A stretch of 64,000 bases of DNA from Verrucomicrobiota bacterium (GCA_016935555.1 JAFGQR010000019.1:1-64000); one strand, 5' to 3'; positions 20,287 through 36,154 are shown, counted from the stretch's first letter. Notes: a model not told the origin generated them from the sequence alone. Numbers and translations: made by a program.

Positions 20287-20607
20287 CTAATAACGCCGGC
20301 CATAGCTGCCCGTCGATCGACGGTCGCGTCCGCCGCGGAAGCCGCCCCCGCTGCGCTCTTCTTTCGGACGCGCCTCGTTCACCGTGATGGTGCGGTCCCC
20401 GAGCGTCGTGCCGTTCAGCGCCTCAACGGCTTTCTGCGCTTCTTCGGACGAACCCATGGTGACGAATCCGAAGCCGCGCGGTCGTCCGGTGTTGCGGTCC
20501 ACCATCAGGTTGGCCTCGGTCACCGTGCCGTGGGCCGCGAAGGCGTCTTGCAGATCGTTTTCGGTGGTGTTGAACGAAAGGTTCCCAACGAATAATTTTG
20601 TGTTCAT
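20287..20607 (-). CDS. RRM-domain RNA-binding protein
   Basis: A 106-residue protein with one RNA-recognition motif (about 3-78). RNP2 is KLFVGNLSF and RNP1 is RGFGFVTM; the aromatic residues that stack on RNA are present. The C-terminal tail (about 85-106) is Gly/Arg-rich and ends in YGRRY, resembling the glycine-rich RNA-binding proteins of cyanobacteria and plants, which are often cold-induced RNA chaperones. The start MNTKLFVGN is at the beginning of the domain; the open frame continues upstream through the leader. It has its own promoter-like sequence and terminator, so it appears monocistronic. Confidence 0.93.
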   Translation of the reverse strand: MNTKLFVGNLSFNTTENDLQDAFAAHGTVTEANLMVDRNTGRPRGFGFVTMGSSEEAQKAVEALNGTTLGDRTITVNEARPKEERSGGGFRGGRDRRSTGSYGRRY

Positions 20608-20689: not shown

Positions 20690-21095
20690 GTTCACTTGAA
20701 GATTTACCATGTGCTGGAAGGCGACAAGCTATATCTCAGACCCCTCGATCATCGACCATCGCCGCCCAATAGCAAGCCCTATTCGCAAAAAGCTGCTTGG
20801 GCCTGCATGGCCTGCGAAGAATGGTTGGGGATCTCCACGGATCCAAGGGGAACCACGGCTCAAGCTTGGCGGTCTGATCGATGGGCGCACCGTGCCTCGT
20901 TACCTGGACAGCTTCAGCGATCCCCGTCTGGATTCAGGGCGCCGTTTACTCCACAGCCCCTCGGTCACCGTCTTCATCGTGATCATCCTGGTTCTCCATT
21001 CTGGGCGAATCGATACACGAGGGAACCCTACCCGTGCCAATCCCAGGCGCGCCATGGGGTGTTTCCCCCATCCCTGCGGCCCCGTCCGGCCGCCT
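20690..21095. other. Intergenic region without a supported gene
   Basis: About 400 bases between the RRM promoter and the end of the NarX-type kinase gene. Open frames exist on the plus strand, but their products have no recognisable family and overlap antisense to the kinase gene. No terminator or promoter stood out. Confidence 0.5.
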
Positions 21096-22490
21096 TTAAT
21101 CCCTGCCGCCGTTGCCGGAAGGAATGTGCGCGCGGATGATGGTGCCTTGGTCTGGCGTGGACTCGACGACGAAGCTGCCTCCCACCATCTCCACCCGCTC
21201 CCGCATGCCGAGCAAGCCCAGGTGTTTGTTGTGTGTGGCGTGCAACACCCGCTGCACTTCGAACGATTTGCCGTTGTCTTGAATCTCCAGGCGGACCGCC
21301 CTGGGGAGTTTCCGGAGACTCACGTCCACGCGACTGGCCCGGGCGTGGCGGGCGACATTGGCCAGGGCGGACTGGACAACGCGGTAGAGCACGGTGCGTT
21401 TGGCGCTGTTCAACTGCTCCACGCCGGCAAACGTCGTGAAGTGCACGCGGATGCCCGTCCGCTTGGTGAAGTCCTTCATGAAGGAATGCAGGCTGGCAAT
21501 CAGCCCCAGGTCGTCCAGCAGTGTCGGGCGCAGCTCGCGGGCAAACCGGTGCACGATGTCGACCGACTTTTCCACCAGCCGTTGCGTGCGGGCGATGCCG
21601 CGCTTGAGCCCCTGGCGATTGACCGTCGGTCTGCGGGCCAGGTTTTCCAAGTGGACATTGATGCCCACCAGGGTTTGGGCGATTTCATCGTGCAGCTCGC
21701 GGCTGATCCGCTTGCGCTCTTCCTCCTGCGCTTGCAACATTTGACGCGACAGTTGCCGCAACTGATCCTGCATGTGACGCGACTGCGCCAACAACTGGAT
21801 CTGGTGGCGCTCGCTTTTCTTGAGGGCCGCCTCGACGGCCTGGCGCCGCACGATCTCCTGCCGCAGCTCCCGGTTCTTCATGGCCAGAGCCTCCATGCGG
21901 CGCTGCGCCTCCTCCGCCTCCCGCAGAGTTGTGATGTCCGATACCGCCACCCGACACCAGTGGTGCGGGCCGCTGACGGCGAGGGCGGAGGTGCCGTGCA
22001 GGTTGGCCCAGAACGCCGCGCCGTCCCCTTTCAGCAGCCTCGCCTCGCAAACCTGGTGTCCGGACCCGGCGAAGACGTGCTCGAGGAAGGCCAGAAAGAT
22101 CGGCTGGCTGGCCGGACTCACAAAGCGCGGCAGGCGGCGGTGGATCAACTGGGACCGTTCCACGCCGAGCAAGGCGGCTGCCGTCAGGTTCACCTCCAGG
22201 ATCCGGCCCTGTTCATCCAGGGAGAAATAGCCGACCGGGGCGAAGTCGTAGAGGTCGGTGTATTTCTCCAGCAGCGTCTCCAGCCGGTTCCGGGCTTCCT
22301 GCAGTTCCGCGTTCTGCATTTCCAGCTCGACTTGGTGGACCTGCAACTCGTGGAGCAGCCGCTGGGGGTCGGCCTCTGCCCTCTGCCTTCTGCCCTCTGC
22401 CTTCTGGTTCCCCGGCCGCTGTCGCAGCCGGGCTTCGGCACGGCGGCGCAATTCGGCGGCAGTGACTGAAGTGTTTGGCGGTCGATTCAT
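21096..22490 (-). CDS. PAS-containing NarX-type (HisKA_3) sensor kinase
   Basis: A 464-residue cytoplasmic kinase. The N-terminal coiled part (LLHELQVHQVELEMQNAEL, about 45-75) leads into a PAS domain (about 80-195, DLYDFAPVGYFSLDEQGRIL). HisKA_3 is near residue 260, with the phospho-His in EERKRISRELHDEIAQTLVG. The HATPase region ends with HLGLLGMRERVEMVGG. Such kinases normally phosphorylate NarL/LuxR-type regulators, and none is encoded nearby. The first ~175 residues are clearly paralogous to those of the next kinase upstream. Codons about 28-40 consist of a heptanucleotide tandem repeat (see the repeat entry), giving the odd QKAEGRRQRAEADP segment. It is the last gene of the three-gene signalling operon. 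Confidence 0.9.
   Translation of the reverse strand: MNRPPNTSVTAAELRRRAEARLRQRPGNQKAEGRRQRAEADPQRLLHELQVHQVELEMQNAELQEARNRLETLLEKYTDLYDFAPVGYFSLDEQGRILEVNLTAAALLGVERSQLIHRRLPRFVSPASQPIFLAFLEHVFAGSGHQVCEARLLKGDGAAFWANLHGTSALAVSGPHHWCRVAVSDITTLREAEEAQRRMEALAMKNRELRQEIVRRQAVEAALKKSERHQIQLLAQSRHMQDQLRQLSRQMLQAQEEERKRISRELHDEIAQTLVGINVHLENLARRPTVNRQGLKRGIARTQRLVEKSVDIVHRFARELRPTLLDDLGLIASLHSFMKDFTKRTGIRVHFTTFAGVEQLNSAKRTVLYRVVQSALANVARHARASRVDVSLRKLPRAVRLEIQDNGKSFEVQRVLHATHNKHLGLLGMRERVEMVGGSFVVESTPDQGTIIRAHIPSGNGGRD
22374..22408. repeat. Heptanucleotide tandem repeat (five units) inside the NarX-type kinase gene
   Basis: Units CTCTGCC, CTCTGCC, TTCTGCC, CTCTGCC and TTCTGGT lie in perfect register. 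Seven is not a multiple of three, so gain or loss of one unit would frameshift the kinase near codon 30. Confidence 0.85.
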
Positions 22491-22510: not shown

Positions 22511-24214
22511 TTAGCATGCCATAACCCGGGAAACCATGTCCCGCAGTTTTCCGATGTCGAAGGGTTTCACCAAGGCGCCCTTGAACCCGCAGCGTTCGGG
22601 TTCCATGACCACGGGAGCGTTGGCGTAACCGCTCATGACGATGGCCTTCACGGCCGGATCAATCTTGAGCAGCGCCTGGATCGTCTCCTGACCGCCAATC
22701 CCGGCGCGAACCGTCAGATCCAGGATGACCGCGTCAAAGGGGCGCGCCTGGCCCTTCGCGCTTTGGTAAGCCTCGACGGCCCTCAGCCCATCCGCCACCA
22801 GTTCCACGTGATGGCCCAGCCGACGGAGCGTCGTCCCGACGACGTCTCTCACGCCTTCCTCGTCATCCATCACCAGGATTCTTCCGCGCCGCGGACAGCC
22901 CTCCGGCGCCGGTGTCTTCTCCTCGCCGGGCAATGTCTGAGCCGCGGGCAGGTAGAGGTGGAAGGTGGTCCCCGCGCCCACCGCGGACTCCACGACAATC
23001 GCGCCCCCGTGTTTCTGGATGACGGCATGGCAGATCGTCAGCCCCAGGCCCATGCCCTTTTGATCCCCCCGCTGCTTTGTCGAATAATAGGGATCGAAGA
23101 TTTTCGGCAGCAGCTCCTTCGAAATGCCGCCGCCCTGGTCCGCGATGCTCACCCGAACGTATTCCCCCGGCGGCAGCGAAGGACCCTCCTGTGAGCCCAG
23201 CACCACATTCTCCGCCCGGACGGACACCACTCCTCCTTCCGGCATCGATTCCCGCGCATTCATGACGACGTTCCGGAGGACCTGTCCGATCTGCCCGGCG
23301 TCCACCTCCGCTGGCCAGAGATCCTCAGCCAGGGAGAATTCGGCACGCACCCGGGAACCGCTCAAGGCCGGCCGGACGGATTCCTGGATCATTCCGGAAA
23401 GGGAGATCGCCTTTCGCACCGGCGCGCCTCCCTGGGCAAAGGTGATGAGCTGATGGGTGAGACCACGGGCCAACAAGGCGGCCTTCTTCGCCTCCTCCAA
23501 ACGGCGCGCCAACTCCTCGCCGGGAGGGGCGAGCGCCTGGGACAGCTCAAGGTCGAGCAGGATCACCGTGAGCAGGTTGTTGAAATCATGGGCGATGCCG
23601 CCCGCCAGAATCCCCGTCGACTCGAGCTTGCTCAGAATGAGACGATCCACCTCCGCCTGCTTGCGCTCGGTGATATCCGTCACCACCGCGCGGCACTCCC
23701 GCCCCGATGCCGCAACCGCCGCTTCGATCCGCACCTCGACCGGCGGCTTGCCTTCCTTGGGGAGCGTGACCTCGCAGAACTGCCTGACCTTGCTCTCAAA
23801 GACCTTCCTGAGGAAGGCGGCAAACACGGGCTGGTCGGCTGCGGCAACGGAAAGCCCCAGGCTCCGCTTGACCAAGCGCGATCGTTCGATCCCCAGCAGG
23901 CTGGCCGCGGTGAGGTTCGCCTCGTGGATCGCCCCCTCACGGTCGAGGCTCAAGTAGCCCACCGGCGCGAAATCGTAGAGGTCGCTGTATCTTTCCAAAG
24001 CCGCCTCCACGGTGTCCCTGGCGTGCTGGAGTTCCTCGTTCTGCATCTCCAACTCGATCTGGTGGACCTGCAGTTCGTGGACCAGGCGCTGCGTGTCGGC
24101 GCCGGTCTGGTTTGCGCCCGTTTCCGGGCGCTGCTCTCGCAGGCGTTCTTCGGCGCGCCGGCGCTGTTCGGCGGCATCGGGTGAGGGGTCCGGTTTCTTG
24201 AGCATGGGGCGCAC
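22511..24214 (-). CDS. PAS hybrid histidine kinase with C-terminal receiver
   Basis: A 567-residue cytoplasmic protein. N-terminal coiled region (LVHELQVHQIELEMQNEEL), PAS (about 75-190), HisKA with the His in LAGGIAHDFNNLLTV (about 215), HATPase with DQGGGI and KGMGLGLTICHAV, and a C-terminal receiver (about 445-565; RILVMDDEEGVRDV, DAVILDLTVRAGIGG with the phospho-Asp). The 'HDFNNLLT' box is typical of NtrB-like hybrid kinases. Starts at 24214 or at MLKKPDPS nine bases later are equally possible. It follows the CheB-CheR gene by 21 bases and precedes the NarX-type kinase by 20 bases, so it is the middle gene of a three-gene operon. Confidence 0.93.
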   Translation of the reverse strand: MRPMLKKPDPSPDAAEQRRRAEERLREQRPETGANQTGADTQRLVHELQVHQIELEMQNEELQHARDTVEAALERYSDLYDFAPVGYLSLDREGAIHEANLTAASLLGIERSRLVKRSLGLSVAAADQPVFAAFLRKVFESKVRQFCEVTLPKEGKPPVEVRIEAAVAASGRECRAVVTDITERKQAEVDRLILSKLESTGILAGGIAHDFNNLLTVILLDLELSQALAPPGEELARRLEEAKKAALLARGLTHQLITFAQGGAPVRKAISLSGMIQESVRPALSGSRVRAEFSLAEDLWPAEVDAGQIGQVLRNVVMNARESMPEGGVVSVRAENVVLGSQEGPSLPPGEYVRVSIADQGGGISKELLPKIFDPYYSTKQRGDQKGMGLGLTICHAVIQKHGGAIVVESAVGAGTTFHLYLPAAQTLPGEEKTPAPEGCPRRGRILVMDDEEGVRDVVGTTLRRLGHHVELVADGLRAVEAYQSAKGQARPFDAVILDLTVRAGIGGQETIQALLKIDPAVKAIVMSGYANAPVVMEPERCGFKGALVKPFDIGKLRDMVSRVMAC

Positions 24215-24235: not shown

Positions 24236-26911
24236 TCAGGCCTCGCTTCCTCGATTCCGCCGAGCCAATTGCGTGGCTTGATCCCCGACCCGTTTCTCCA
24301 AACCGGCCTGTTTCGTCCGCAACTTGGTCTCCAGCGTCTTGGCCGCGGTGATGTCCCCGAAGGTGATGACCACGCCGTCAATCCGGTCGTCCAACGTGCG
24401 GTAGGGCATGATGCGCATGGTAAACCAGCGCCCGTCGCGCGCGGCCACCGGCTTTTCCGTCGAGGCCAGCGTTCGCAGCACTTCGCGCACGTCGTCCCCC
24501 AGCGTCGGGTAATTGAGGTTCGAGACCAAGTCGGTGATAGGCCGGCCCACGTCGCCCGGGATGAGCTTGAAAAGGCTCGTCGCCTGGCTGGTGAACCGCC
24601 GGACGTGGAGCTCCTTGTCGAGGAACAGGGTCGCGATATCGGTGCTGTCGAGCAGGTTCTTCATGTCATTGCTGGCCCGCGACAGCTCGTCCACCTTGGC
24701 CTGTAACTCGGTGTTGAGTGTCTGGAGTTCCTCGTTCAGCGACTGCATTTCCTCCTTCGAGGTGGTGAGTTCCTCGTTGGTGGACTGCAGTTCTTCATTC
24801 GTGGATTGCAGCTCCTCATTGGCGGACCGCAGTTCCTCCTGCGAGGTCTGCATTTCTTCGTGGGTGGTCCGCGCCTCGGCGCGGACCTGCTGGAGTTCCT
24901 GCTCCAGTTCGGCCACTCGCGCGATGCCGGCGTGAGGCTTGGATGCCCGGACTGCGGCTTTGGCGGCGAGGGGCGGGGCCATATCGGTGAACACGATCAT
25001 GACCAGGCCTTGCAGCGGCCCGGCTTCTTCGAGTCGCTGGAGGGTCACCTCGACGCACTGCTCCCCGCCGATGGTCCCCACTTTGAGTCCGTGGAGCGTG
25101 ACGCTTTGTTGTTGTCGGAGCGCTTTCTGAAAGGCGCCAGCCAGTTCGTAGCGCAAGCCTTCGCGGGCCATGGCAAAGAGGTTCCAGTTGGCCCTGCCGG
25201 CGGGGGGTTCCAGGTATTTGCCGGTCCGGCCGCTGATGTAGAAGATGTCGCCCTTGTCATTGACCAACACCGCCGGCGGGGCGTAGCGCTGCAGGACCAA
25301 CTGATCCGCCAGGGACTCGAGACTGGACGGGGGATGGGGCGCCGGACGCGCCTCCACCGCACCGGGCGAGGCCGCGCTGAAGGACGAGGGAAACTCAACG
25401 GGTTCGGACGGCAGGGCGGATTCCGTGCGCCGGTAGAGCCGCGATTTGCCGCCCAGGGGGGCAAACAGGTCGGTGGCACCGCCAATCGTTTCCGCGCTGC
25501 CGAGAACCAGGATGCCGCTGGGATTGAGGCTGTAGTGAAACAACGGAATCAGTTTCTTTTGCACCTCCGGGGCCAGGTAGATCAGCAGGTTGCGGCAGCT
25601 CAAGATGTCCAGCTTGGTAAAGGGCGGATCCATGATGAGATTCTGCGGCGCAAAAATCACCAGATCCCGGATCTCTTTGCGCACCTGGTAGCCATGTTCG
25701 TTTTTGGCAAAGAACCGGTTCAACCGCTCCGGCGAAACGTCGGCGGCAATGTTGGCCGGAAAGACGCCCTGACGGGCCTTGTCGATCGCGTCGCGGTCCA
25801 GGTCGGTGGCGAAGATCTGCAGGGCGAAGTTCCCCTTGGGTTTGGATTGCTCGATGGCCTCCTTGAACACGATGGCCAGGGAATAGGCTTCTTCTCCGGT
25901 GGAACAGCCGGGCACCCACGCGCGCAGGGCCTGGCCGGGCGACCGGTTCGCGAGGAGTGTGGGGATGGCCTGCGTGCGCAACTGCTCCCAGGCCGCCGGA
26001 TCGCGGAAGAAATTCGTCACTCCGATCAACAGCTCCTTGAACAGCAGATCCAGCTCCTGGGAATTCTCCTGCAGGTAATGGACGTAGGTCGCCATCTTGT
26101 GGATCTGGTGAATGCCCATGCGTCGCTCGATCCGGCGATAGAGTGTGTTCCGTTTGTAGAGCGAAAAGTCGTGGCCGGTATGGGCGCGCAGCAGGATGAC
26201 CGCTTTCTCCAGGGCGCTCTGTGTCTTATGTTCCAGCGCCACTTCCGTCCGGCCCATCAGCGGGGCGCGATGGAGGTAGGCGACGATTTTCCCGGGCAGC
26301 TCCTCCACCGGAGCCACGATGTCCGCCAGCCCGGCGTCCATCGCGCTGCGCGGCATGCTGTCGAATTTGGCCGACGCCGGCTCCTGCACCAGCACGACGC
26401 CCGCCTTCTCCTTGATGGCCCGCAGGCCCAGGGTGCCGTCAGAGCCCATGCCGGAAAGAATCACGCCGATGCTGCGTTCTTGCTGGTCCAGCGCCAGGGA
26501 GCGCAGAAAAAAATCGATCGGCAGGCGCCGTCCCCGTGGCGCCGCCGGCTCGAGCAAGTGCAGGACCCCGTGCAGGATGGACATGTCCTTGTTTGGCGGG
26601 ATCACATAGACGCAGTCCGGCCGCACCCGGGTGCGGTCCTTGACCTGGATGACTTTCATGACGGTGGCTCGTTGCAGCAGTTCGGGCATGATCCCCTTGT
26701 GCGTCGGGTCCAGGTGCTGGACAATGACGAACGCCATACCGCTGCCCGCCGGCACATGCGCCAGAAATTGCTCCAAGGCCTCGAGTCCTCCCGCCGAGGC
26801 GCCAATGCCAACGATGGGGAAGGGCATGCGGCCCGGCCGGGCGGGGCGGGACGGGCGAGCGTCGGAGGCGGGCCCTTTCCGGCGGTGTTTCCGTGCCGAT
26901 TTCAGTTTCAT
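24236..26911 (-). CDS. CheB-CheR-PAS fusion protein
   Basis: An 891-residue fusion. CheB-type methylesterase at about 28-215 with an intact triad (Ser in VGIGASAGGLEAL, His in IVQHLDPTHKG, Asp in LSGMGSDGTLG); CheR-type methyltransferase at about 235-480 (VTNFFRDPAAWE, SAM loop WVPGCSTGEEAYSLA); a middle PAS-like region (about 555-650); a heptad coiled coil of repeated EELQSTNEEL-like units (about 690-750); and a C-terminal PAS domain (about 755-870). No kinase domain follows. Such fusions occur next to PAS kinases rather than in chemotaxis operons, and no chemoreceptor is nearby. The likely role is signalling control of stress or envelope genes, through methylation of an unknown partner. The start MKLKSARKHRRK is chosen; a longer frame adds 28 residues without homology. 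Confidence 0.93.
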   Translation of the reverse strand: MKLKSARKHRRKGPASDARPSRPARPGRMPFPIVGIGASAGGLEALEQFLAHVPAGSGMAFVIVQHLDPTHKGIMPELLQRATVMKVIQVKDRTRVRPDCVYVIPPNKDMSILHGVLHLLEPAAPRGRRLPIDFFLRSLALDQQERSIGVILSGMGSDGTLGLRAIKEKAGVVLVQEPASAKFDSMPRSAMDAGLADIVAPVEELPGKIVAYLHRAPLMGRTEVALEHKTQSALEKAVILLRAHTGHDFSLYKRNTLYRRIERRMGIHQIHKMATYVHYLQENSQELDLLFKELLIGVTNFFRDPAAWEQLRTQAIPTLLANRSPGQALRAWVPGCSTGEEAYSLAIVFKEAIEQSKPKGNFALQIFATDLDRDAIDKARQGVFPANIAADVSPERLNRFFAKNEHGYQVRKEIRDLVIFAPQNLIMDPPFTKLDILSCRNLLIYLAPEVQKKLIPLFHYSLNPSGILVLGSAETIGGATDLFAPLGGKSRLYRRTESALPSEPVEFPSSFSAASPGAVEARPAPHPPSSLESLADQLVLQRYAPPAVLVNDKGDIFYISGRTGKYLEPPAGRANWNLFAMAREGLRYELAGAFQKALRQQQSVTLHGLKVGTIGGEQCVEVTLQRLEEAGPLQGLVMIVFTDMAPPLAAKAAVRASKPHAGIARVAELEQELQQVRAEARTTHEEMQTSQEELRSANEELQSTNEELQSTNEELTTSKEEMQSLNEELQTLNTELQAKVDELSRASNDMKNLLDSTDIATLFLDKELHVRRFTSQATSLFKLIPGDVGRPITDLVSNLNYPTLGDDVREVLRTLASTEKPVAARDGRWFTMRIMPYRTLDDRIDGVVITFGDITAAKTLETKLRTKQAGLEKRVGDQATQLARRNRGSEA

Positions 26912-27192
26912 GACCCGGTTTCCTGGGTGGCGGTGCTCAAGAACAGACGCGCGCCGGCACACGCAATCCGCAGCGGACTGTTCAGCGGGTGCCACGCGAC
27001 GCGGGTCTTCATCGCAGCGAAATGAGTCTGCCCGATTGGCGCGTGGGCCTCAACCGAAAAGCCGCGGCCTGGCTGCGCCCCTTCGGCGGGCCAACGATCT
27101 CACCGCACGGTCTGGCGGTTGAAGCCGTCCTTGAGTCGCCACCGAAAGCATGCTCATGCGCGGGAATTTAGGTGACGCGCGCCGCACGAACA

Positions 27193-27210
27193 ATGGGGTG
27201 TTCACCCCAT
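27193..27210. promoter_or_regulatory. Box G: degenerate copy of the palindromic element
   Basis: ATGGGGTGTTCACCCCAT contains the GGGGT/ACCCC arms of the element found upstream of six genes further right, but the downstream GCKTAGCGTG-type box is absent in both directions. It precedes a fragment of a second glycosyltransferase copy and is probably a leftover. Confidence 0.45.
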
Positions 27211-27408: not shown

Positions 27409-27772
27409 ATCGCGTCAACGGCGATGCAAGGTGGGGGGATTCGTTCATCGAGCAGGACGATGCAAAGCCGATCATGCTGAAAGAATTTGCGCGCGAACAG
27501 GGGCTTTGAAGAAGCGACCCGATCCCCTGCCGGGTGCCCCCCCGGTTTCCCTCAAGGTTCCTGCTTGCATCTGTTGCAATGAGACACCAGATCGGACGGC
27601 ATTCTTGCCAGATTCCCAGCTACTCCTGGGACTCCGGCTGGAACACAGTGGATGCGGGCGGGGTCAGCTTGGGTGTTCGTGAAACTAACCCAGAAAGCCG
27701 TCGAACAGAGTTCCCCGCGCCATATGACTCCGGTGGGTGCTGCAGCATGACGTCAACCGGCAAAATGAACGG

Positions 27773-27817
27773 TAGGGTTTCACCCTATAGCACAAGACCA
27801 ACCGCTGGCGTAGCGTG
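27773..27817 (+). promoter_or_regulatory. Box A: two-part element upstream of the WYL-like small gene
   Basis: TAGGGTTTCACCCTATAG (27773-27790), 17-base spacer, GCGTAGCGTG (27808-27817). The first part is a perfect palindrome here (TAGGGT-TTC-ACCCTA). The gene's ATG is 46 bases downstream. Confidence 0.7.
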
Positions 27818-27863
27818 CTTCCAGTGCACCGGCCGGTCAAACCGTGCCCAACACATCAATACT

Positions 27864-28184
27864 ATGATACAAAATCACCAATGGTTTATCGATGCCATCA
27901 ACGAGAAGAAGAAAGTCAGGGTGCGGTTCTATTCCATAGCCGACAATGGAGTCTTGGACCGGGTCTGCGCTCCCATGGATTATGGTCCGGGAAGCGAGAC
28001 GGCGGACGGGCTGAATCGCTACTGGCTTTGGGACTATACGAGCCATACGGATACACACATCCTGGGCTTGGCGCCACAGGAGATTGTGGATTTGCAGGTT
28101 CTGGGCGAGGTGTTTAGCCCATCAGACTTTGGCGTCACGCCTTGGCCGTGGTCCATCCCCCGGGCGTGGGCTTCGCCGCCTTGA
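27864..28184 (+). CDS. Small protein resembling stand-alone WYL-like domains
   Basis: A 106-residue soluble protein with no signal peptide. It starts MIQNHQWFIDAINEKKKVRV, and continues with features of a small family I recall only loosely: KKVRVRFYS, CAPMDYGPGS, LNRYWLWDYTS and HILGLAPQEIVDL, ending in a Trp/Pro-rich tail (FGVTPWPWSIPRAW). The arrangement of a basic strand, a CAP-DYGP turn and an RYWxWD strand resembles the ligand-sensing WYL fold, but the WYL triplet itself is not present, so the call is tentative. It has its own box A promoter element and stands alone. A weak purine-rich sequence precedes the ATG. It might be a regulator or ligand-binding accessory for the regulon. Confidence 0.55.
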   Translation: MIQNHQWFIDAINEKKKVRVRFYSIADNGVLDRVCAPMDYGPGSETADGLNRYWLWDYTSHTDTHILGLAPQEIVDLQVLGEVFSPSDFGVTPWPWSIPRAWASPP

Positions 28185-28301
28185 CGGAATCAAAAACCCA
28201 TCGTAAGAACCGCCACGGAAAGCATGCCCACAGGCCAAAATGTGGAGGACACGCGTTGCGCTGGGCTGCAGCGGCCTCGTAGTTGGCGGCGGAGCGCCCG
28301 G

Positions 28302-28346
28302 TAGGGTTTTACCCCATAGCCAAGAGCGGGCACAGCGCCGAGACTC
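28302..28346 (+). promoter_or_regulatory. Box B: two-part element upstream of the glycosyltransferase-GH130 operon
   Basis: TAGGGTTTTACCCCATAG (28302-28319), 17-base spacer, GCCGAGACTC (28337-28346; the weakest second box). The proposed GTG start is 14 bases after it. An in-frame start at 28283 would put the element inside the coding region, so the later start is favoured. Confidence 0.65.
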
Positions 28347-28360
28347 AAGCAGACGAAGTT

Positions 28361-30658
28361 GTGGAAGCCGCATCCGACATTCGCAAGATTGCGTTTCTCG
28401 GCGACTACTTGCCGCGCAAATGCGGCATTGCCACGTTCACGTCCGACGTGCTTTCCGCCGTGGCGGCGGAGCACCCCGAGAGCCAGTGTTTCGCCGTGCC
28501 GGTCAACGACATCCCGGGTGGCTACGAATATCCGGACGTGGTTCGCTTCGAAATCGAGGAGCAGGATCTGCCCTCCTACCAGCGCGCGGCGGATTTCCTC
28601 AACATCGGCAACGCGGACATCGTCTGTGTGCAGCACGAGTTCGGCATTTACGGCGGCCTGGCCGGCGGCCATCTGCTGGCGCTGCTGCGCGAATTGCGGA
28701 TGCCCGTCGTGACCACGCTGCACACGGTCTTGCGCGAGCCCAACGCCGAGCAGCGGCGGGTGATGCAGGAGTTGATCGCGCGTTCGACGCGGCTGGTGGT
28801 GATGACTGAACGCGGGGAGCAGATGTTGCAGGAGATTTACCAGGCGCCGGCGGCCCGGATCGATCTCATCCCGCACGGCATCCCCGACATGCCGTTCACC
28901 GATCCCAACTACTACAAGGACCAGTTCGGCGTGGAAGGCCGGCTCGTGTTGCTCACGTTCGGACTGCTCTCCCCCAACAAGGGCGTCGAATACGCGCTCA
29001 ACGCGCTGCCGGAGATCCTGGCCGAGTTCCCCAATGTCGTCTATATCGTGCTGGGCGCGACCCATCCCAATCTGGTGCGCGAGCAAGGCGAGTTCTACCG
29101 GTTGACCCTCGATCGGCTGGCCAAGAAGAACAAGGTCCAGAAGCACGTCATCTTCTACAACCGCTTCGTCGAGCTCGACGAGCTGAAGGAATTCATCGGC
29201 GCGGCGGACCTTTACCTCACGCCGTATCTGAACGAGGCGCAGATCACTTCCGGCACCCTGGCCTACGCGTTTGGCGCGGGCAAGGCGGTGATCTCGACGC
29301 CCTACTGGCACGCCGCCGAACTGCTCGCGGACGGCCGCGGCGTGCTGGTGCCGTTCCGCGACGCCAAGGCCATCGCGCGGGAAGTCATCGGCTTGCTGCG
29401 CGACGAGACGCGCCGGCACGCGATGCGCAAGAACGCCTACAAGCTCGGCCGCGAGATGGTGTGGAGCCACACGGCGCGTCTCTACATGCGGTCCTTCGAG
29501 CGCGCCCGGATCGAGGGGGCGGTCTGGTCGCGAAAATCGTTCGCCGTGAAAACCCTCGACCAGGCGCCGCGGGAGCTGCCGGACCTGAGATTGGACCATC
29601 TTTCGCGGATGACCGATTCGACCGGCATGTTCCAGCACGCCATTTTCACCGTGCCGAATTTTTCCGAGGGCTACTGCACGGACGACAACGCCCGCGCGTT
29701 CATGCTCGCCGTGCTGCTCGACGAGTTGGAGGAGGAGCCGGATAAGGTGCGGACGCTGGCGACGACCTATGCGGCGTTTCTGCATCATGCGTTCGATCCC
29801 GCGACGAAACGGTTTCACAATCACCTCAGCTTCGACCGGCGGTGGCTCGATGTGCAGGGATCGGAGGACTCTCATGGCCGGGCCCTCTGGGCGTTGGGTG
29901 TGGGCGTGGGACGCTCGCCGCATCGCAGTTTTCAAGTCATGTCGGGACAGATCTTCGCTCAGGCGCTGCCCGCAGTGGCGGAATTGAGATCGCCGCGCGC
30001 GTGGGCCTTCAGCCTGCTCGGCATTCACGAATACCTGCAGCGTCTGAACGGCGATCGGTCTGCCCACCAGATGCGGGAGTTGCTCACAACGCGGCTCATG
30101 GAACTGTTCGGCCGGACCGCACAGCCGGACTGGCCCTGGTTCGAAGACGTGCTGTCGTACGACAACGCCAAGCTCGCCCATGCCTTGATCCTGAGCGGGC
30201 GCGCGACCGGGCAGGCGCCGGTGTTTGAACGCGGATTGCAGGCGCTGCGCTGGCTGGTGGACGTGCAGACCGCGGAGAGCGGCGATTTCCGGACGATCGG
30301 CAGCAACGGATTCTACCCGCGCGGCGGCACCCGCGCGAACTTCGATCAGCAACCCATCGAGGCGCACTCCATGGTGTCGGCCTGTCTCGAAGCCTACCGC
30401 GCCACGTCGGACGCGCGGTGGTACGAGCAGGCTCAGCGCACCTTCGACTGGTTTCTCGGCTGGAACGATCTCGGCTTGGAGCTCTACTCCCCGACCACCG
30501 GCGGCTGCCGCGATGCGCTGCATGTCGATCGGGTCAACCAGAACCAGGGAGCGGAATCGACGCTCGCTTTCCTGCTGTCGTTGGCGGAAATGCAGCTCAT
30601 GCAAAACGCCGTCACGGTATTCAACCCGTCCCCTTCGCAACCCGGATCAACCCCATGA
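28361..30658 (+). CDS. GT4 glycosyltransferase fused to a C-terminal (alpha/alpha)6-like region
   Basis: A 765-residue cytoplasmic protein. The N-terminal half (to about residue 385) is a GT-B fold of family GT4: FLGDYLPRKCGIATFTSDV at the donor loop, HEFGIYGG, HGIPDMPF, LLTFGLLSPNKGVEYAL, and the nucleotide-sugar motif around LTPYLNEAQITSGTLAYAFG. The C-terminal half (about 400-755) is helical and rich in aromatic residues (NFSEGYCTDDNARAFMLAVL, WLDVQGSEDSHGRALWALG, GGCRDALHVDRVNQNQGAES), like glycoside hydrolases of the (alpha/alpha)6 type. The start GTG at 28361 is chosen because box B lies just upstream. Its stop overlaps the ATG of the GH130 gene by four bases. The pair are often adjacent in other bacteria and may make and recycle a mannose-containing polymer, but the sugar is unproven. 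Confidence 0.85.
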   Translation: MEAASDIRKIAFLGDYLPRKCGIATFTSDVLSAVAAEHPESQCFAVPVNDIPGGYEYPDVVRFEIEEQDLPSYQRAADFLNIGNADIVCVQHEFGIYGGLAGGHLLALLRELRMPVVTTLHTVLREPNAEQRRVMQELIARSTRLVVMTERGEQMLQEIYQAPAARIDLIPHGIPDMPFTDPNYYKDQFGVEGRLVLLTFGLLSPNKGVEYALNALPEILAEFPNVVYIVLGATHPNLVREQGEFYRLTLDRLAKKNKVQKHVIFYNRFVELDELKEFIGAADLYLTPYLNEAQITSGTLAYAFGAGKAVISTPYWHAAELLADGRGVLVPFRDAKAIAREVIGLLRDETRRHAMRKNAYKLGREMVWSHTARLYMRSFERARIEGAVWSRKSFAVKTLDQAPRELPDLRLDHLSRMTDSTGMFQHAIFTVPNFSEGYCTDDNARAFMLAVLLDELEEEPDKVRTLATTYAAFLHHAFDPATKRFHNHLSFDRRWLDVQGSEDSHGRALWALGVGVGRSPHRSFQVMSGQIFAQALPAVAELRSPRAWAFSLLGIHEYLQRLNGDRSAHQMRELLTTRLMELFGRTAQPDWPWFEDVLSYDNAKLAHALILSGRATGQAPVFERGLQALRWLVDVQTAESGDFRTIGSNGFYPRGGTRANFDQQPIEAHSMVSACLEAYRATSDARWYEQAQRTFDWFLGWNDLGLELYSPTTGGCRDALHVDRVNQNQGAESTLAFLLSLAEMQLMQNAVTVFNPSPSQPGSTP

Positions 30659-32109
30659 ACGCTGCCGCGGTTCAGCGCACCAACGTCGTACTGCATCCCG
30701 ATCGCCGCCGGGTGTTGCTCCGGCCGTTTCTGCTGCCGAACGAGCCGCGCGCCCGGACGATCTGCGCCCAGGTCATGGCCATTCCCGAACGCGACGTCCA
30801 CGCCCTGTGGGCGCAGGTGCAGGCCGAGTTCGGCAAACGCCACGCAAGGATCCGCGAGTTCCTTCGACGGCGGTTCGAGCAGGCGCGCCCCTGTCTGCGC
30901 ACCGACGGGAAGCTCTCCGAGGAACGGGAGTTGTTGCTCGGCGCGTATTTCAGCCACGAGTATTCGCTCGAGGCAGCGGCGTTGTTCAATCCCTCCATCG
31001 TGCCGCATCCCGATCAGTCCGGCCTTTCCCCCGGAACGCTGCGTTTCATCCTGAGCCTGCGGGCCACCGGCGAAGGCCACATTTCCTCGATCACGTTTCG
31101 CACCGGCTTTCTGGACGCCCACTGCAACATCACGATCAACGCGCCCACCCGCTACTGCCTGGAGCCCGAGCAAGTGCCCAATGCGTCGTTTGAGAAACCC
31201 CTGTTCGAGCGCAAGCTGCGGGAGCTTGGTCTCGTGGGCGACTTCACGCGCCAGACGCTCGAGCAACTGGGCGAGACCTTCACGCTGGAGGAGTTGCGCG
31301 CCGCCGTCCGTCGCGCCGCGGAACGCCTGGGCGCGCGGGATCAACAAACCACCGCGGTGGCCCGCAAAACCCTGACCCTGGCCCAATCCAATTACGAAGT
31401 GCAGTTCGCATCCGACTCGCGGCTCTCCGGGCGCGTGTTGTTTCCGGTCACGCCGTCGCAGAGCAACGGCATCGAGGACGCCCGGTTCGTTCGGTTCCAA
31501 GAGGAAAATGGCCTGCGGACCTACTATGCGACTTACACCGCCTACGACGGCAAGATGATCCTGCCGCAGTTCATCGAGACGCCCGATTTCCGGCATTTCA
31601 AGTTCATCACGCTGAACGGCCCGGCGGTGCAGAACAAGGGCATGGCGCTCTTCCCGCGGAAGATCCAGGGCTGCTACGCGATGCTCAGCCGGCAGGACAA
31701 GGAAAACATCCACATCATGTTCTCCGACCATCTCCATTTCTGGCACAGCGCCCAGCTCCTGCTGAGGCCCAAGTATCCCTGGGAATTCATCCAGTTGGGC
31801 AACTGCGGTTCGCCGATCGAAACCGAAGCCGGCTGGCTCGTGCTCAGCCATGGCGTGGGCGCGATGCGGAAGTACTGCATCGGCGCGTTTCTGCTCGACC
31901 GGGACGATCCGACCCGGGTATTGGGCCGCTTGCGGGAACCGCTGATCACGCCCAACGAAAACGAACGCGAAGGCTATGTGCCGAACGTGGTCTATTCCTG
32001 CGGCAGCCTGCTGCACGGCCGGCAGCTCATCCTCCCCTACGCGATGTCCGACTACGCCACCACGTTTGCCACCCTGTCGCTCGACGCCGTGCTGGCGGCG
32101 ATGGAATAG
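30655..32109 (+). CDS. GH130-family glycosidase/phosphorylase
   Basis: A 484-residue five-bladed beta-propeller protein of family GH130, whose members phosphorolyse or hydrolyse beta-mannosides. Visible signatures are NGIEDARFVRF, TYYATYTAYDGKMILPQF, NKGMALFPRK (the phosphate-binding or substrate-binding loop), HFWHSAQLL, NCGSPIETEAGWLVLSHGVG and NVVYSCGSLLHG. An N-terminal helical stretch (about 1-150) precedes the propeller, longer than in typical GH130 enzymes. Translation is coupled to the glycosyltransferase through the overlap ATGA at 30655-30658. It is presumably cytoplasmic, as no signal peptide is visible. Confidence 0.87.
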   Translation: MNAAAVQRTNVVLHPDRRRVLLRPFLLPNEPRARTICAQVMAIPERDVHALWAQVQAEFGKRHARIREFLRRRFEQARPCLRTDGKLSEERELLLGAYFSHEYSLEAAALFNPSIVPHPDQSGLSPGTLRFILSLRATGEGHISSITFRTGFLDAHCNITINAPTRYCLEPEQVPNASFEKPLFERKLRELGLVGDFTRQTLEQLGETFTLEELRAAVRRAAERLGARDQQTTAVARKTLTLAQSNYEVQFASDSRLSGRVLFPVTPSQSNGIEDARFVRFQEENGLRTYYATYTAYDGKMILPQFIETPDFRHFKFITLNGPAVQNKGMALFPRKIQGCYAMLSRQDKENIHIMFSDHLHFWHSAQLLLRPKYPWEFIQLGNCGSPIETEAGWLVLSHGVGAMRKYCIGAFLLDRDDPTRVLGRLREPLITPNENEREGYVPNVVYSCGSLLHGRQLILPYAMSDYATTFATLSLDAVLAAME

Positions 32110-32244
32110 TCAAACGGCGAGCCTGGAGATTTCACACGCAAGTGCAGCCTGAAGGTGTGGCGCAGATTTTCAATCTCCTGCGAGGCTCAGGCACGCGCCG
32201 AGAAGTCTGTTGGAGTCATGAGCAGGCAGCCCCATCGCTTCAGG

Positions 32245-32289
32245 TAGGGTTTCACCCCATAGGCAAATTCAAGGCGAAGGCGTACTCTT
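32245..32289 (+). promoter_or_regulatory. Box C: two-part element upstream of the two-helix membrane protein
   Basis: TAGGGTTTCACCCCATAG (32245-32262), 17-base spacer, GCGTACTCTT (32280-32289). The ATG at 32302 lies only 12 bases later, so if the second box is a -10 element the transcript would be nearly leaderless. Confidence 0.72.
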
Positions 32290-32301
32290 TGGAGTGCGGT
32301 C

Positions 32302-32829
32302 ATGGCAACGACCCACCGTGAACTACCAACCGCGATGAGCGAGCACGAAAAACAAACGACATTTTTGCTGCAGTGCCTGGTCTACGACGGAAGTGCCGAA
32401 CGCCAGGAACTGGAGGATGGAATCGTTCAGATTCTGCGGGACGAGCGTTGCCTGCGTCGGGCGATGTGGCTGATGGCTTTGCTCATGGCGCTGGTGCTGG
32501 CGGGCTTGGGCTATACTGCGGTTCTGGTGGACGGCTTTCTTCAGAACCTCCCGCCGTTCCTGGTAAGGGTTGTTGGCGTGCTGGGGCTGGCCTCGCTGCT
32601 TTCCCTGCTGGGTTTTGCCGGCCTTCGCTTTCTCTATCGCCACAAGTTGAACGGGCGGCGCGAGGCCTGTCGCCGGTTGGCCGTCAAACTCCTGGAGTCG
32701 CGATTGGGAACGCCCCGCACCTGGCACAGGCCGGAAGTGGCCAACGAAACACAACGCCTCGCGTCTGCCGTCGCGGCAATCCCGTCGTGGTTGGAAAGCG
32801 AACCCACAAGTGCGAAAACACATCCTTGA
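32302..32829 (+). CDS. Small membrane protein with two transmembrane helices
   Basis: A 175-residue protein of no named family. Residues about 50-70 (AMWLMALLMALVLAGLGYTAVLV) and 85-105 (VVGVLGLASLLSLLGFAGL) are transmembrane helices; both ends are charged and probably cytoplasmic. An Arg-rich helix follows (YRHKLNGRREACRRLAVKLLESRLG). The start could be MATTHREL at 32302 or MSEHEKQT 33 bases later; the later one sits better with the leader after box C. Its end overlaps the next small gene by 20 bases, suggesting translational coupling. Proteins with such a layout occur next to PAS-type stress-signalling genes in related bacteria, but no function is known to me. Confidence 0.7.
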   Translation: MATTHRELPTAMSEHEKQTTFLLQCLVYDGSAERQELEDGIVQILRDERCLRRAMWLMALLMALVLAGLGYTAVLVDGFLQNLPPFLVRVVGVLGLASLLSLLGFAGLRFLYRHKLNGRREACRRLAVKLLESRLGTPRTWHRPEVANETQRLASAVAAIPSWLESEPTSAKTHP

Positions 32830-33100
32830 CTCCGATCCGGCTCCAGTGCATCCGTGGGCAGCCGGGCTCAACGTGCCGTCTGTCGCCAGCATCGCCGTGA
32901 CCTGCGAAACGGCCGATCATTCGTTGGAGAACGCCTTCGATCAGCGTCGGGGACCCGGCGGGAGCCGCTGGGTTGCGGAAACGCCAGGGGAACAGACCCT
33001 CCTCCTGGGGTTTGATGCGCCGAAACACATTCGCCAGGTCTGGCTGGAAGTGGAGGAAACCCGGGGCCTCATGCCCGTTGAATTCAAACGCGCGTCTTGA
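32810..33100 (+). CDS. Small discoidin-like (F5/8-type) beta-sandwich protein, possibly truncated
   Basis: A 96-residue protein beginning with a GTG inside the end of the previous gene. The middle is like small carbohydrate-binding or discoidin-type proteins found in stress clusters: VPSVASIAVTCETADHSLEN, then AETPGEQTLLLGFDAP and IRQVWLEVEE. The C-terminus ends at GLMPVEFKRAS, earlier than I would expect for such a jelly roll, so a frameshift or shortening near 33070 is possible. It has no signal peptide. The 20-base overlap with the upstream membrane-protein gene argues that it is real and cotranscribed from box C. Confidence 0.55.
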   Translation: MRKHILDSDPAPVHPWAAGLNVPSVASIAVTCETADHSLENAFDQRRGPGGSRWVAETPGEQTLLLGFDAPKHIRQVWLEVEETRGLMPVEFKRAS

Positions 33101-33108
33101 GTGTGAGT

Positions 33109-33155
33109 TGGGGTGAATACCCCATAGCCCAGGGCCAGCTCCGGGGCGTAACGTA
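33109..33155 (+). promoter_or_regulatory. Box D: two-part element upstream of floA
   Basis: TGGGGTGAATACCCCATAG (33109-33127; one base longer between the arms than the other copies), then an 18-base gap and GCGTAACGTA (33146-33155). The ATG of floA at 33176 is 20 bases downstream. Confidence 0.65.
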
Positions 33156-33175
33156 GCGCCAGTGTGCTTAAATTG

Positions 33176-34138
33176 ATGAACCTCATGTCCGCCCAGGCCG
33201 ACTTGGCCAGGACACCATGGCAATGGGTGTCTCTGGCGGTTACCGTCGTCGTGCTGCTCGCCGTGGGTATCCTCGTCGTTCACTTGGGGACGATTTACCT
33301 TCGCGCCTTGTTCTCCGGCGCCAAAGTCACCTTCACCGAACTTGTCGCCTTGCGCTTGCGGCGCATTCCATTGGCCCTGGTCGTGGACAACCGGATTGCC
33401 GCGGTGCGCTCGGGGGTGGCGCTCAGCATTGATGACCTCTCGACGCACCATCTGGCGGGCGGCAACGTGCCGATGGTGGTGCTGGCGCTCATTGCCGCCC
33501 GAAAGGCGGGCATCCACCTCGTCTTCGATCGCGCCTGCGCCATTGACCTGGCCACTAAAGGCACCGGCAAAAGCGTCATCGAAGCGGTCCGCACTTCGAT
33601 CAATCCGAGGGTCATTGAATGCCCGGATCCCCGCGGCGGCAAAAGCACCATCGAGGGCGTGGCGAAGGACGGCATCGCGATCAAGGCCCGCGCGCTGGTC
33701 ACGGTGCGGACGAACCTCGACCGCTTTGTCGGCGGAGCCACTGAGGAGACCATCATTGCGCGCGTCGGCGAGGGCATCGTCAGCACCATCGGCTCCTCGG
33801 CCTCCTACAAGGACATGCTGGAAAACCCTCACCGCATTTCGCAAACCGTCCTCGACAAGGCGCTCGATGCCAACACCGCGTTTGAAATCCTGTCGCTCGA
33901 CATCGCCGATGTGGACGTCGGCGAAAACATCGGGGCCAAACTCCAGGCGGAGCAGGCGGAAACCAACAAGCTCATCGCCCAAGCCCACGCCGAAATCCGA
34001 CGCGCGGCCGCCGTCGCCGGCGAGCAGGAAATGACGGCGCGCGTGGCCGAGATGCGCGCCCGCCTGGTCGAGGCGGAAGCCGGGGTGCCGCTGGCGATGG
34101 CGGGAGCTTTCCGCGCCGGCCATATCGGCATCTCATGA
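33176..34138 (+). CDS. floA: Flotillin-like protein FloA
   Basis: A 320-residue membrane scaffolding protein of the SPFH superfamily that organises functional membrane microdomains. One N-terminal membrane helix (about 17-37, [21 protein letters not shown]) is followed by the FloA-specific region ([39 protein letters not shown]), the SPFH/PHB core (about 130-260; [41 protein letters not shown]), and an Ala/Glu-rich coiled coil. It ends at [14 protein letters not shown], without the extra DYY..MKNIQADT-type tail that I recall from Bacillus FloA. No nfeD partner is adjacent. It is preceded by box D; the GTG at 33164 is also in frame, but it lies too close to the promoter box. Confidence 0.92.
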
Positions 34139-34250
34139 ATCAGCGCGGGGTGCTGCCGCATGAAGGTTGAGGAGGACCCACTGGAAGCAAACACACGCAG
34201 ACGAGGGCATGGGAAAGGCACGCCACCCCCGAGCGAACTGGAGAGAACTT

Positions 34251-34709
34251 ATGCTGTATTTCGCGTACGGGTCTAACATGGATTGGGAGCGCATGACCCA
34301 TGCAAGTCGTGCCGCCCATGCCCAGTTTCTTTTCAAGGCGCTGTTGCCGAACCACAAATTGGCGTTTACTTGCCGGACGGACGCAGGAACCGGTGCGGCT
34401 GACATCGTGCCGGCCGTGGGCAACGCCGTGTGGGGGGTCGTTTACCACATTGAGCCCGAGGACCGGGAAAACCTGGATCGGCGGCGGGGGGTGCTCTTGG
34501 AAGAGTGCCGGCCTGACACCGTGGTCCTTCACCCCGAGGGAGATCTGAGCCGCACGCTGAAAGCCTTCACCTATGTCGTTTGCCGCAAGCTGGCGACCCA
34601 CCAGCCACCCACACGACAGTATCTCAATTGGCTCCTTAACGGTGCAAGACAGGCGCGATTGCCTGATGCGTACATCGAAACATTGCAGCGCATCGAAACG
34701 CTCCGATGA
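34251..34709 (+). CDS. Gamma-glutamylcyclotransferase-like protein (AIG2/GGCT fold)
   Basis: A 152-residue cytosolic protein starting with the family's signature strand LYFAYGSNMDWERM (the YGSN substrate loop). GNAVWGVVYHIEPEDRENLDRR and ECRPDTVVLHPEGDLSRTLKAFTYV complete the fold. The catalytic Glu expected between these is plausibly in PEDRENLD or RRGVLLEE; I cannot fix it without alignment. The family makes 5-oxoproline from gamma-glutamyl peptides. A good ribosome-binding site GGAGAG lies 6 bases before the ATG. The gene follows floA by 112 bases on the same strand and may share its box D promoter. A small hairpin TCCCTG-CGC-CAGGGA (34713-34727) follows the stop and could be a weak terminator. 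Confidence 0.82.
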   Translation: MLYFAYGSNMDWERMTHASRAAHAQFLFKALLPNHKLAFTCRTDAGTGAADIVPAVGNAVWGVVYHIEPEDRENLDRRRGVLLEECRPDTVVLHPEGDLSRTLKAFTYVVCRKLATHQPPTRQYLNWLLNGARQARLPDAYIETLQRIETLR

Positions 34710-35005
34710 TTCTCCCTGCGCCAGGGAACCATCGCGAAGCCCACCCCATGGCGCGACATCGCCGTGAAGGGAAAACAAGTCCCGCAGGTCGCTTTCCGTG
34801 GTGGCAGCCGTCAAGTTATCTACGTGGACCCTTGTCCTTCCGACGCAAACCGAAGGCAGCCGCAACTGCAAATCCATAAAAGCCAACTGCAACACAGCGC
34901 CATTTCCGGCCGGTGGACTTATGCGCGGGCTGGTCGCAAGGCATGAGAGGGAGTAGGCGCGTGTCTCGGAGTTGCATGCCCAACTTGCGATCGGCAATCA
35001 GTCGT

Positions 35006-35512
35006 TCAGTTTTCGTCAAGCAGGTCCCCTCGGCGTTCGGCATTTCTCGAACCGAACAACGTCCCCATCTCACGCAGTTCCCAAAGTTGAACGCGGATTT
35101 CGTGATGTCGCTCCACCCAATCCATAACGGAGCGCGCGGTGGGCGTCTGCCATCGCCGGATGAGGCCTGGATCGCCAATGAGGATCAGATGCCGCACGTT
35201 CTTGCTGGCGTCTTTGGCCAGCAGAGCCTTAAAGACCTCCTTCTCCAGCAAGGAATCCGAGCTCCACATGCTGTGCTCGATCTCCAGGATGGTCTGCTCG
35301 TCCTCGATCCAGAAGTCGACGGATTGACGATTGGCCTTGGTGAGGAATTGGCTGACCACTCCGGGGCCCAATTCCCCGACCACCACGGACTTCAGGTGAT
35401 CGACGACTTCCCGGGTGTAGGAATCGCCCGAACCGGCCCGCCGGGCGTTGAGCAGGTCATAAGAGGCGGCAATTTCTTGAGCCAATTGAAAGATGCGTCC
35501 GGCTTTGCTCAT
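35006..35512 (-). CDS. Hypothetical protein, possibly of the PD-(D/E)xK nuclease fold
   Basis: A 168-residue soluble protein that I do not recognise. The segment SVDFWIEDEQTILEIEHSMW resembles the core of PD-(D/E)xK folds (an acidic residue on one strand, then E-I-E on the next), but the catalytic Lys is replaced, so activity is doubtful. The rest is helical (LLEKEVFKALLAKDASKNV) followed by a strand-turn (VRHLILIGDPG), as in domains that use a nuclease fold for binding. It is preceded on the minus strand by box E. It stands alone; the nearest gene, a gamma-glutamylcyclotransferase, is convergent. Confidence 0.6.
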   Translation of the reverse strand: MSKAGRIFQLAQEIAASYDLLNARRAGSGDSYTREVVDHLKSVVVGELGPGVVSQFLTKANRQSVDFWIEDEQTILEIEHSMWSSDSLLEKEVFKALLAKDASKNVRHLILIGDPGLIRRWQTPTARSVMDWVERHHEIRVQLWELREMGTLFGSRNAERRGDLLDEN

Positions 35513-35665
35513 ACGTGCCGAGATTCCAGGCGGCTGGGGGCAGCATCGGTGCCCGAGGGGCCATGCGCCGGGGGACGCAGTCGCGGTTGGTGTGTCACAC
35601 TAGATTCACTCCAACCGGCCGGCCGAAGCACACCATCAAGGTGATGCCAATGGGTCATCACCTGC

Positions 35666-35710
35666 CACGCTAAGCTCTGGGCGGGGACTGCGCTATGGGG
35701 TATAACCCTA
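35666..35710 (-). promoter_or_regulatory. Box E: two-part element reading towards the possible nuclease gene
   Basis: On the minus strand TAGGGTTATACCCCATAG (35710-35693), a 17-base spacer and GCTTAGCGTG (35675-35666). The start codon of the minus-strand gene is about 150 bases further on. Confidence 0.68.
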
Positions 35711-35757
35711 CGTTGAATTTCGGCGACCGGGCAGCCTCCGCCCCGTCGTCCCTCGGT

Positions 35758-35775
35758 CCACGGGGTGAAACCCTA
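35758..35775 (-). promoter_or_regulatory. Box F1: second minus-strand copy of the palindromic element
   Basis: On the minus strand TAGGGTTTCACCCCGTGG. The box 17 bases further (CGGAGGCTGC) matches the second-box consensus poorly, so this copy may serve only as a binding site. With E and F2 it places three copies in 135 bases between divergent genes. Confidence 0.5.
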
Positions 35776-35782
35776 TCCATGG

Positions 35783-35827
35783 TAGGGTTATACCCCATGG
35801 CGCGGGGCGGGCTCAGGGCTTAGCCTG
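35783..35827 (+). promoter_or_regulatory. Box F2: two-part element upstream of the small membrane protein
   Basis: TAGGGTTATACCCCATGG (35783-35800), 17-base spacer, GCTTAGCCTG (35818-35827). The ATG of the membrane-protein gene is at 35888. Confidence 0.7.
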
Positions 35828-35887: not shown

Positions 35888-36154
35888 ATGAACAGTAGTG
35901 TCATTTTCATTCGCCTGGTGGCGATGGTGGCTGTCAGTTGGGCAGTTCCTCCGCTGCTGTGCCACTATCTGGGGCCGGCGGTTGGAGCCCTGGGCGCTTC
36001 AGGGGCAGCCGCATTCTGGTATTCCCAGTATCGCTTTCCGGCACGGAAGGAAAGAAGTGGGGCCTATTTTTGGTTTGTAACCAGCGGATATGCCTGTATC
36101 GGCATCACGCTTGTGGTCTGCCTCGGCCGGTTGGCGGGATTGTCTTTGCTATGA
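35888..36154 (+). CDS. Small membrane protein with two helices
   Basis: An 88-residue protein. Helix one is about residues 5-40 (FIRLVAMVAVSWAVPPLLCHYLG and VGALGASGAAAFWY), a basic loop (RFPARKERSG) follows, and helix two is about 58-85 (YACIGITLVVCLGRLAGL). There is no recognisable family. It has its own box F2 and is the last gene of the cluster with this element. An ATG at 35835 is out of frame and a TTG at 35840 in frame would add 16 residues; the ATG at 35888 gives a cleaner membrane protein. Confidence 0.65.
   Translation: MNSSVIFIRLVAMVAVSWAVPPLLCHYLGPAVGALGASGAAAFWYSQYRFPARKERSGAYFWFVTSGYACIGITLVVCLGRLAGLSLL

Follow-up and report, generated by a model that had tools for sequence, protein, structure and literature searches.

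A two-part DNA element, which an earlier note had picked out at six places in a 64,000-nucleotide stretch of the genome of a Verrucomicrobiota bacterium (GCA_016935555.1 JAFGQR010000019.1:1-64000; hereafter the window), recurs with strict spacing in many genomes of this phylum and its relatives. It consists of an upstream dyad and a -10-like box, and we consider it likely to be an activator-dependent class-II promoter that is bound by a NarL/VraR-type response regulator and serves a general-stress and envelope regulon. The element, its spacing, its intergenic placement, the families of its target genes, its taxonomic spread and its co-occurrence and adjacency with the regulator were all computed directly.

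Sequence, spacing and placement of the element

An 18-bp element was found at all six noted coordinates in the window. With up to three mismatches allowed, the pattern TAGGGTNNNACCCCATAG has seven matches there against 0.46 expected, a number reached by 0 of 100 dinucleotide shuffles; the matches lie at 27773 (+), 28302 (+), 32245 (+), 35710 (-), 35783 (+) and 35775 (-), with the reverse reading of 27773 as the seventh. All six copies are present, but the one at 33110 (previously placed at 33109) reads GGGGTGAATACCCCATAG and belongs to a slightly different class, with a centre of 4 nt as opposed to 3 nt elsewhere. The second boxes are -10-like TANNNT sequences (TAGCGT, TACTCT, TAACGT, TAGCGT and TAGCCT, with a degenerate GAGACT at 28302) that start exactly 20 nt past the end of ATAG in five copies and 21 nt past it in the copy at 33110. 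The spacing is fixed, as had been claimed, at 20 nt to TANNNT rather than at 17-18 bases, a value obtained with GCG/GCT counted into the box. At five of the window sites the likely start codon is 57-105 nt from the start of the element; at 35710 (-) the distance is 198 nt.

Copies from many other genomes have the form GGTAGGGTTACACCCCATAGC-N20-TANNNTG. Among 42 copies from the organism's own genome and related genomes of the same order, the consensus is GG-TAGGGT-TWY-ACCCCATRG-C followed by a -10-like T39 A40 ... T44. In 42 copies gathered with no -10 demanded of them, TANNNT lies exactly 20 nt away in 23 (0.36 expected) and 19 or 21 nt away in 7. When approximately 85,000 species genomes were scanned for the two boxes together, at least 80 stretches matched; among the matches listed these come almost entirely from Verrucomicrobiota, Lentisphaerae, Kiritimatiellae and Planctomycetota, and the spacing is 20 nt in 83 of 101 copies, in a scan limited to gaps of 16-20 nt, so that a sharp edge is visible below 20 and not above. 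The few matches outside the Planctomycetes-Verrucomicrobia-Chlamydiae (PVC) bacteria (L097 and L164) may reflect chance, misbinning or transfer.

A logo of 183 non-redundant sites, most of which had been chosen with a -10 present (T77 A88 ... T86), contains no conserved -35 hexamer and no TTGACA. The upstream block spans 20 bp, with approximately 15 near-invariant positions and dyad symmetry, while the 20-nt spacer is weakly biased without being conserved and the flanks are not conserved. Of the 4-nt-centre class, GGGGTGNNYACCCCATRG, the loci contain 26 copies, with both readings of some palindromes counted, and the -10, where one was found, lies at 20 nt (8) or 21 nt (4); a control pattern with a 5-nt centre occurs 0 times in the same loci. 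The two-mismatch and relaxed patterns used in these searches include some chance matches.

The expectation that relatives would carry intergenic copies at a fixed distance from gene starts was borne out. All but two of 197 copies (195) are intergenic, in sequence of which 79% was called as coding; the two that are called inside genes lie immediately 5' of a BON gene and probably reflect errors in gene calling. The predicted transcription start is mostly 25-75 nt from the ATG, with genes called by a simple script and individual starts approximate. The suggestion of an operator fused to a -10 is likewise supported, the spacing to TANNNT being fixed across phyla.

The genes next to the sites most often encode BON-domain proteins, which are BON/OsmY-like (22), alpha-helical lipoproteins (11), DUF5670 (7), entericidin (7) and GH1-like proteins (5), followed by PRC-barrel, YflT, CsbD and ice-binding proteins (4 each), histidine kinases and others; the GH1 label and some minor ones were assigned by eye. 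It is because of these target families that we speak of general stress. Ice-binding-like proteins (PF11999) form a gene cluster present in 8 of 102 motif loci (for example L116 and L185), several of them directly downstream of a site, and a radical-SAM/B12-type gene, labelled by eye, is present in 10 motif loci (for example L040:5895 and L043:7950). A Planctomycetota contig, L146, has five successive sites before ECF-like sigma, YflT-like, DUF5670-like and SPFH-like genes.

Within the organism's own genome (5.29 Mb in 200 contigs) there are 8 matches at up to two mismatches, 6 of them in the window and 2 on C200 (L009), a 17-kb contig with genes for a lipoprotein, a small membrane protein and an entericidin-like protein. 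The coordinated envelope or stress regulon that had been proposed is upheld by the stress-gene targets and the intergenic sites, but in this genome it is limited in size and restricted to two contigs.

The candidate regulator and its kinases

In another genome, G050, an island with homologues of a kinase cluster in the window carries beside them a NarL/LuxR-type response regulator (L040:14171-14854). Its orthologue in the organism's own genome, at C185:671-1345, is 63% identical, the next best match being 44%, and comes after the end of a kinase gene that is 70% identical to the window gene 21096-22490 over 202 residues. The earlier note had likened the palindrome to the sites of NarL/LuxR-type regulators while finding no such regulator in the window, and both statements agree with our results: the site co-occurs with and adjoins a NarL/VraR-type response regulator, which this genome encodes outside the window.

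Across 389 genomes (388 of the phylum and the organism's own) the motif is present in 44 and the regulator, at a threshold of E<=1e-66, in 47; both occur in 34, the motif alone in 10, the regulator alone in 13 and neither in 332 (p 2.8e-29), in a table affected by incompleteness and binning of metagenome-assembled genomes (MAGs). The backward-pattern control matched one genome. When genomes were collected by motif first, the orthologue reached the same threshold in 38 of 50. In many genomes the regulator gene lies approximately 30-190 nt upstream of a copy of the element, and it directly precedes one in L040, L119, L169, L188, L196, L200, L166, L175 and L218. Unbiased clustering of the genes in the 102 motif loci placed the regulator in 11 and its kinase family in 18; among the commonest gene clusters it is the sole recurrent DNA-binding family recognised, and no recurrent sigma factor was seen among them. 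Genomes that have the regulator without the strict motif belong mostly to the family f62, in which that motif is largely absent, and they carry relaxed dyads downstream of the regulator at the same spacing to TANNNT; several copies are altered on both arms, to TAGGGC-NNN-GCCCCAT, so that the palindrome is kept, and 24 of 61 f62 genomes match this form at up to two mismatches.

The regulator (P0001) has a receiver domain (PF00072, 5e-30) and a C-terminal GerE helix-turn-helix (HTH; PF00196, 2.5e-18), and the solved structures closest to it are those of VraR (5hev, E 6e-44, over nearly the whole length) and NarL (1a04). The orthologue alignment keeps the acidic pair (ED/DD), the VMDIAMP-type motif of the phospho-acceptor Asp and the LKQ-type Lys motif; the HTH is conserved, and the family shares a C-terminal ...GIIESSVQxTI (ESSVQ-type) tail. 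A HisKA_3 kinase homologue lies directly upstream of the regulator in L061, L200, L205, L207, L139 and others. At L097:263-940 (-), in a Deltaproteobacteria MAG, the site precedes a different LuxR-type response regulator, approximately 40% identical.

In the mechanism that we propose, the 20-bp dyad GGTAGGGT-TNN-ACCCCATAG, or its 4-nt-centre form GGGGTGNNCACCCCATRG, would replace the -35 at about -52 to -33, with a sigma-70-type TANNNT -10 at a fixed 20-21 nt after it. A phosphorylated dimer of the regulator, in this organism the product of C185:671-1345, would bind the dyad (predicted operator TAGGGTTACACCCCATAG) in class-II position and recruit housekeeping RNA polymerase to general-stress and envelope genes. 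The signal, for which stress is the probable source, would reach the regulator by way of PAS-HisKA_3 kinases, whose genes adjoin that of the regulator and are also present in the window (21096-22490). LuxR-type regulators act from a class-II activator position, and the centre of the dyad falls at approximately -43 relative to the predicted start, if the first T of TANNNT is taken as -12. Activation of the housekeeping polymerase by a response regulator would be the most economical reading. A further site lies ahead of the window's kinase cluster, at 27208 (-), and together with sites before kinases in L096 and L092 it suggests feedback or autoregulation.

Alternative readings and known systems

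Several observations weigh against a class-II promoter served by this regulator. The -10 of the copy at 28302 is poor, two sites would have leaders of roughly 150-250 nt, and C185, the contig that carries the regulator in the organism's own genome, has no copy of the motif at up to two mismatches. The threshold used for the co-occurrence table was picked after a score gap had been seen, and the genomes tabulated there lack phylogenetic independence. The orthologue falls below that threshold in 10 of the 44 motif-positive genomes, and in G334, which is 95% complete and has 7 sites, the best regulator match is 43%. Co-occurrence and adjacency, moreover, do not distinguish the regulator from the other genes that move with it in the islands. 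The site might instead be bound by another, unlinked transcription factor, with the NarL-type regulator merely a frequent member of the islands, and the genomes lacking the orthologue, which in the motif-first set number 12 of 50, would fit such a factor. We nevertheless regard this as unlikely: no other recurrent DNA-binding family emerged from the commonest clusters of the motif loci, presence of the motif closely tracks presence of the regulator, the motif variants of f62 accompany the regulator, and many of the MAGs are incomplete.

The earlier note had offered for consideration an alternative sigma promoter of the extracytoplasmic function (ECF) type, with the two boxes as its -35 and -10, and this would account for the fixed spacing, the stress-type targets and the single orientation. 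Such a promoter is very unlikely here, since an upstream block of 20 bp with some 15 near-invariant positions and dyad symmetry far exceeds the length of a sigma -35, the TANNNT downstream is of ordinary form, the co-occurrence with a response regulator is strong, and among the commonest gene clusters no sigma gene recurs beside the sites, the ECF-like gene of L146 lying downstream of a site and being itself a possible target. A dyad over the -35 region could also obstruct polymerase and so act as a repression operator for the same or another regulator; the polymerase has no consensus -35 available to it, however, and rigid spacing to the -10 is expected of a class-II activator and unneeded by a repressor site, which leaves repression highly improbable. 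The clustering of the copies and their patchy distribution would suit a mobile palindromic repeat, akin to repetitive extragenic palindromes or miniature inverted-repeat transposable elements (REP/MITE-like), or a chance repeat family. This explanation is hardly credible when conservation is limited to the dyad and the -10 while spacer and flanks vary, nearly all sites are intergenic and mostly aimed at a nearby gene start, and the pattern read backward gives about zero matches. An RNA hairpin or riboswitch was also considered and appears unlikely, as an Rfam scan of the window gave no match and the dyad is upstream of the -10.

The proposed circuit shares with VraR/LiaR-type systems (VraSR, cell-envelope stress) a receiver plus GerE HTH architecture, a HisKA_3 partner kinase and targets of the envelope or stress type, whereas its target sequence and gene set differ as far as known, its kinases are of the PAS type (PAS-HisKA_3), and the ...GIIESSVQxTI tail and the PVC distribution set it apart. 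Inverted half-sites are bound by dimers of GerE-type HTH proteins, as in NarL-type dyad operators; the element likewise has inverted half-sites, but the half-site is ACCCCATAG, the centre is 3 or 4 nt and the class-II position is fixed. The RpoS and SigB general stress regulons classically include the OsmY/BON, entericidin, CsbD and YflT families. All four are among the targets here, apparently under the control of a response regulator and not of an alternative sigma factor. The target types also overlap those of PhyR-EcfG, the alphaproteobacterial general stress system, which in Sphingopyxis granuli directly targets csbD and ecnAB (PMC7083833); an ECF sigma operates there, as against an apparent activator site with a sigma-70-type -10 in the present case.

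Sites and genes of the window

The first site of the window (27771-27817, +; GGTAGGGTTTCACCCTATAG-N20-TAGCGTG) precedes a small open reading frame (ORF) at 27864-28184, which has a homologue with a site in L041. The second (28300-28345, +; GGTAGGGTTTTACCCCATAG-N20-GAGACT, the degenerate -10) precedes a GT4-type glycosyltransferase gene (28361-30658, +) and a GH130 gene (30655-32109, +); sites are also found upstream of homologues of the former in L218, L137 and L096, and in the G050 island the GT4 gene (L040:19382 to L041:1632) is apparently broken up by frame changes. The third (32243-32288, +; GGTAGGGTTTCACCCCATAG-N20-TACTCT) precedes a gene for a two-helix membrane protein (32302-32829, +), whose homologue in L112 has a site 69 nt upstream. 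The 4-nt-centre copy (33110-33154, +; GGGGTGAATACCCCATAG-N21-TAACGT) precedes the gene for flotillin-like FloA (33176-34138, +), with a homologue in L047 that lies 495 nt downstream of a site. The fifth (35667-35712, -; CGTAGGGTTATACCCCATAG-N20-TAGCGT) is 198 nt 5' of an ORF at 35006-35512 that has no Pfam match, and the sixth (35781-35827, +; GGTAGGGTTATACCCCATGG-N20-TAGCCTG) precedes a gene for a small membrane protein (35888-36154, +), again with an L047 homologue downstream of a site. Between these two lies an extra copy of the motif (35758-35775, -; TAGGGTTTCACCCCGTGG) that has no -10 at the usual spacing. The labels WYL-like and nuclease-fold, which had been given to two of the genes, found no support in Pfam.

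Two candidates absent from the earlier list lie on the minus strand. The site at 27208, GGGGTGAACACCCCATTG-N20-TAAATT (27165-27210; in the longer form ATGGGGTGAACACCCCATTG-N20-TAAATT), is of the 4-nt-centre class and stands upstream of the kinase cluster 26911-21096, with a predicted leader of approximately 250 nt. The other, at 21069 (21025-21069; GGGGGAAACACCCCATGG-N21-TAGGGT), is weak and comes after the kinase gene 21096-22490 with no clear target. The cluster, also on the minus strand, comprises genes for a CheB/CheR-PAS-type protein (24236-26911; also an island gene in G050, G010 and G012), a hybrid PAS kinase with a receiver domain (22511-24205; also in the G050 island) and a PAS-HisKA_3-HATPase histidine kinase (21096-22490), whose homologues in other genomes sit immediately before the candidate regulator. 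The same three genes have the same order in G050 (L040:7784-13673). There the response regulator comes next after the HisKA_3 kinase; in the window it is missing from this place and the next gene encodes an RRM-type RNA-binding protein (20287-20607). On C185 an RRM gene likewise comes after the regulator.

PVC bacteria are abundant in soil and water, and to our knowledge their transcriptional control outside the Chlamydiae is little described. We found no published account of the present system in the open-licence literature searched, so that the term undescribed is used provisionally. With that proviso, our results point to an undescribed stress-response circuit shared within the Verrucomicrobiota-Planctomycetota group. 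More tentatively, and at somewhat less than even chances, Verrucomicrobiota and their relatives may run a general stress response that dispenses with an alternative sigma factor, in which one NarL/VraR-type regulator and its PAS kinases act through a single strict promoter element on an RpoS/SigB/EcfG-like set of genes carried in patchy islands. What the analysis provides is an operator precise enough to be tested, together with candidates for the regulator and the kinase and a conserved list of targets. One regulon would account for a large set of DUF-type stress genes, and the element is directly usable for the annotation of regulons in many uncultured genomes.

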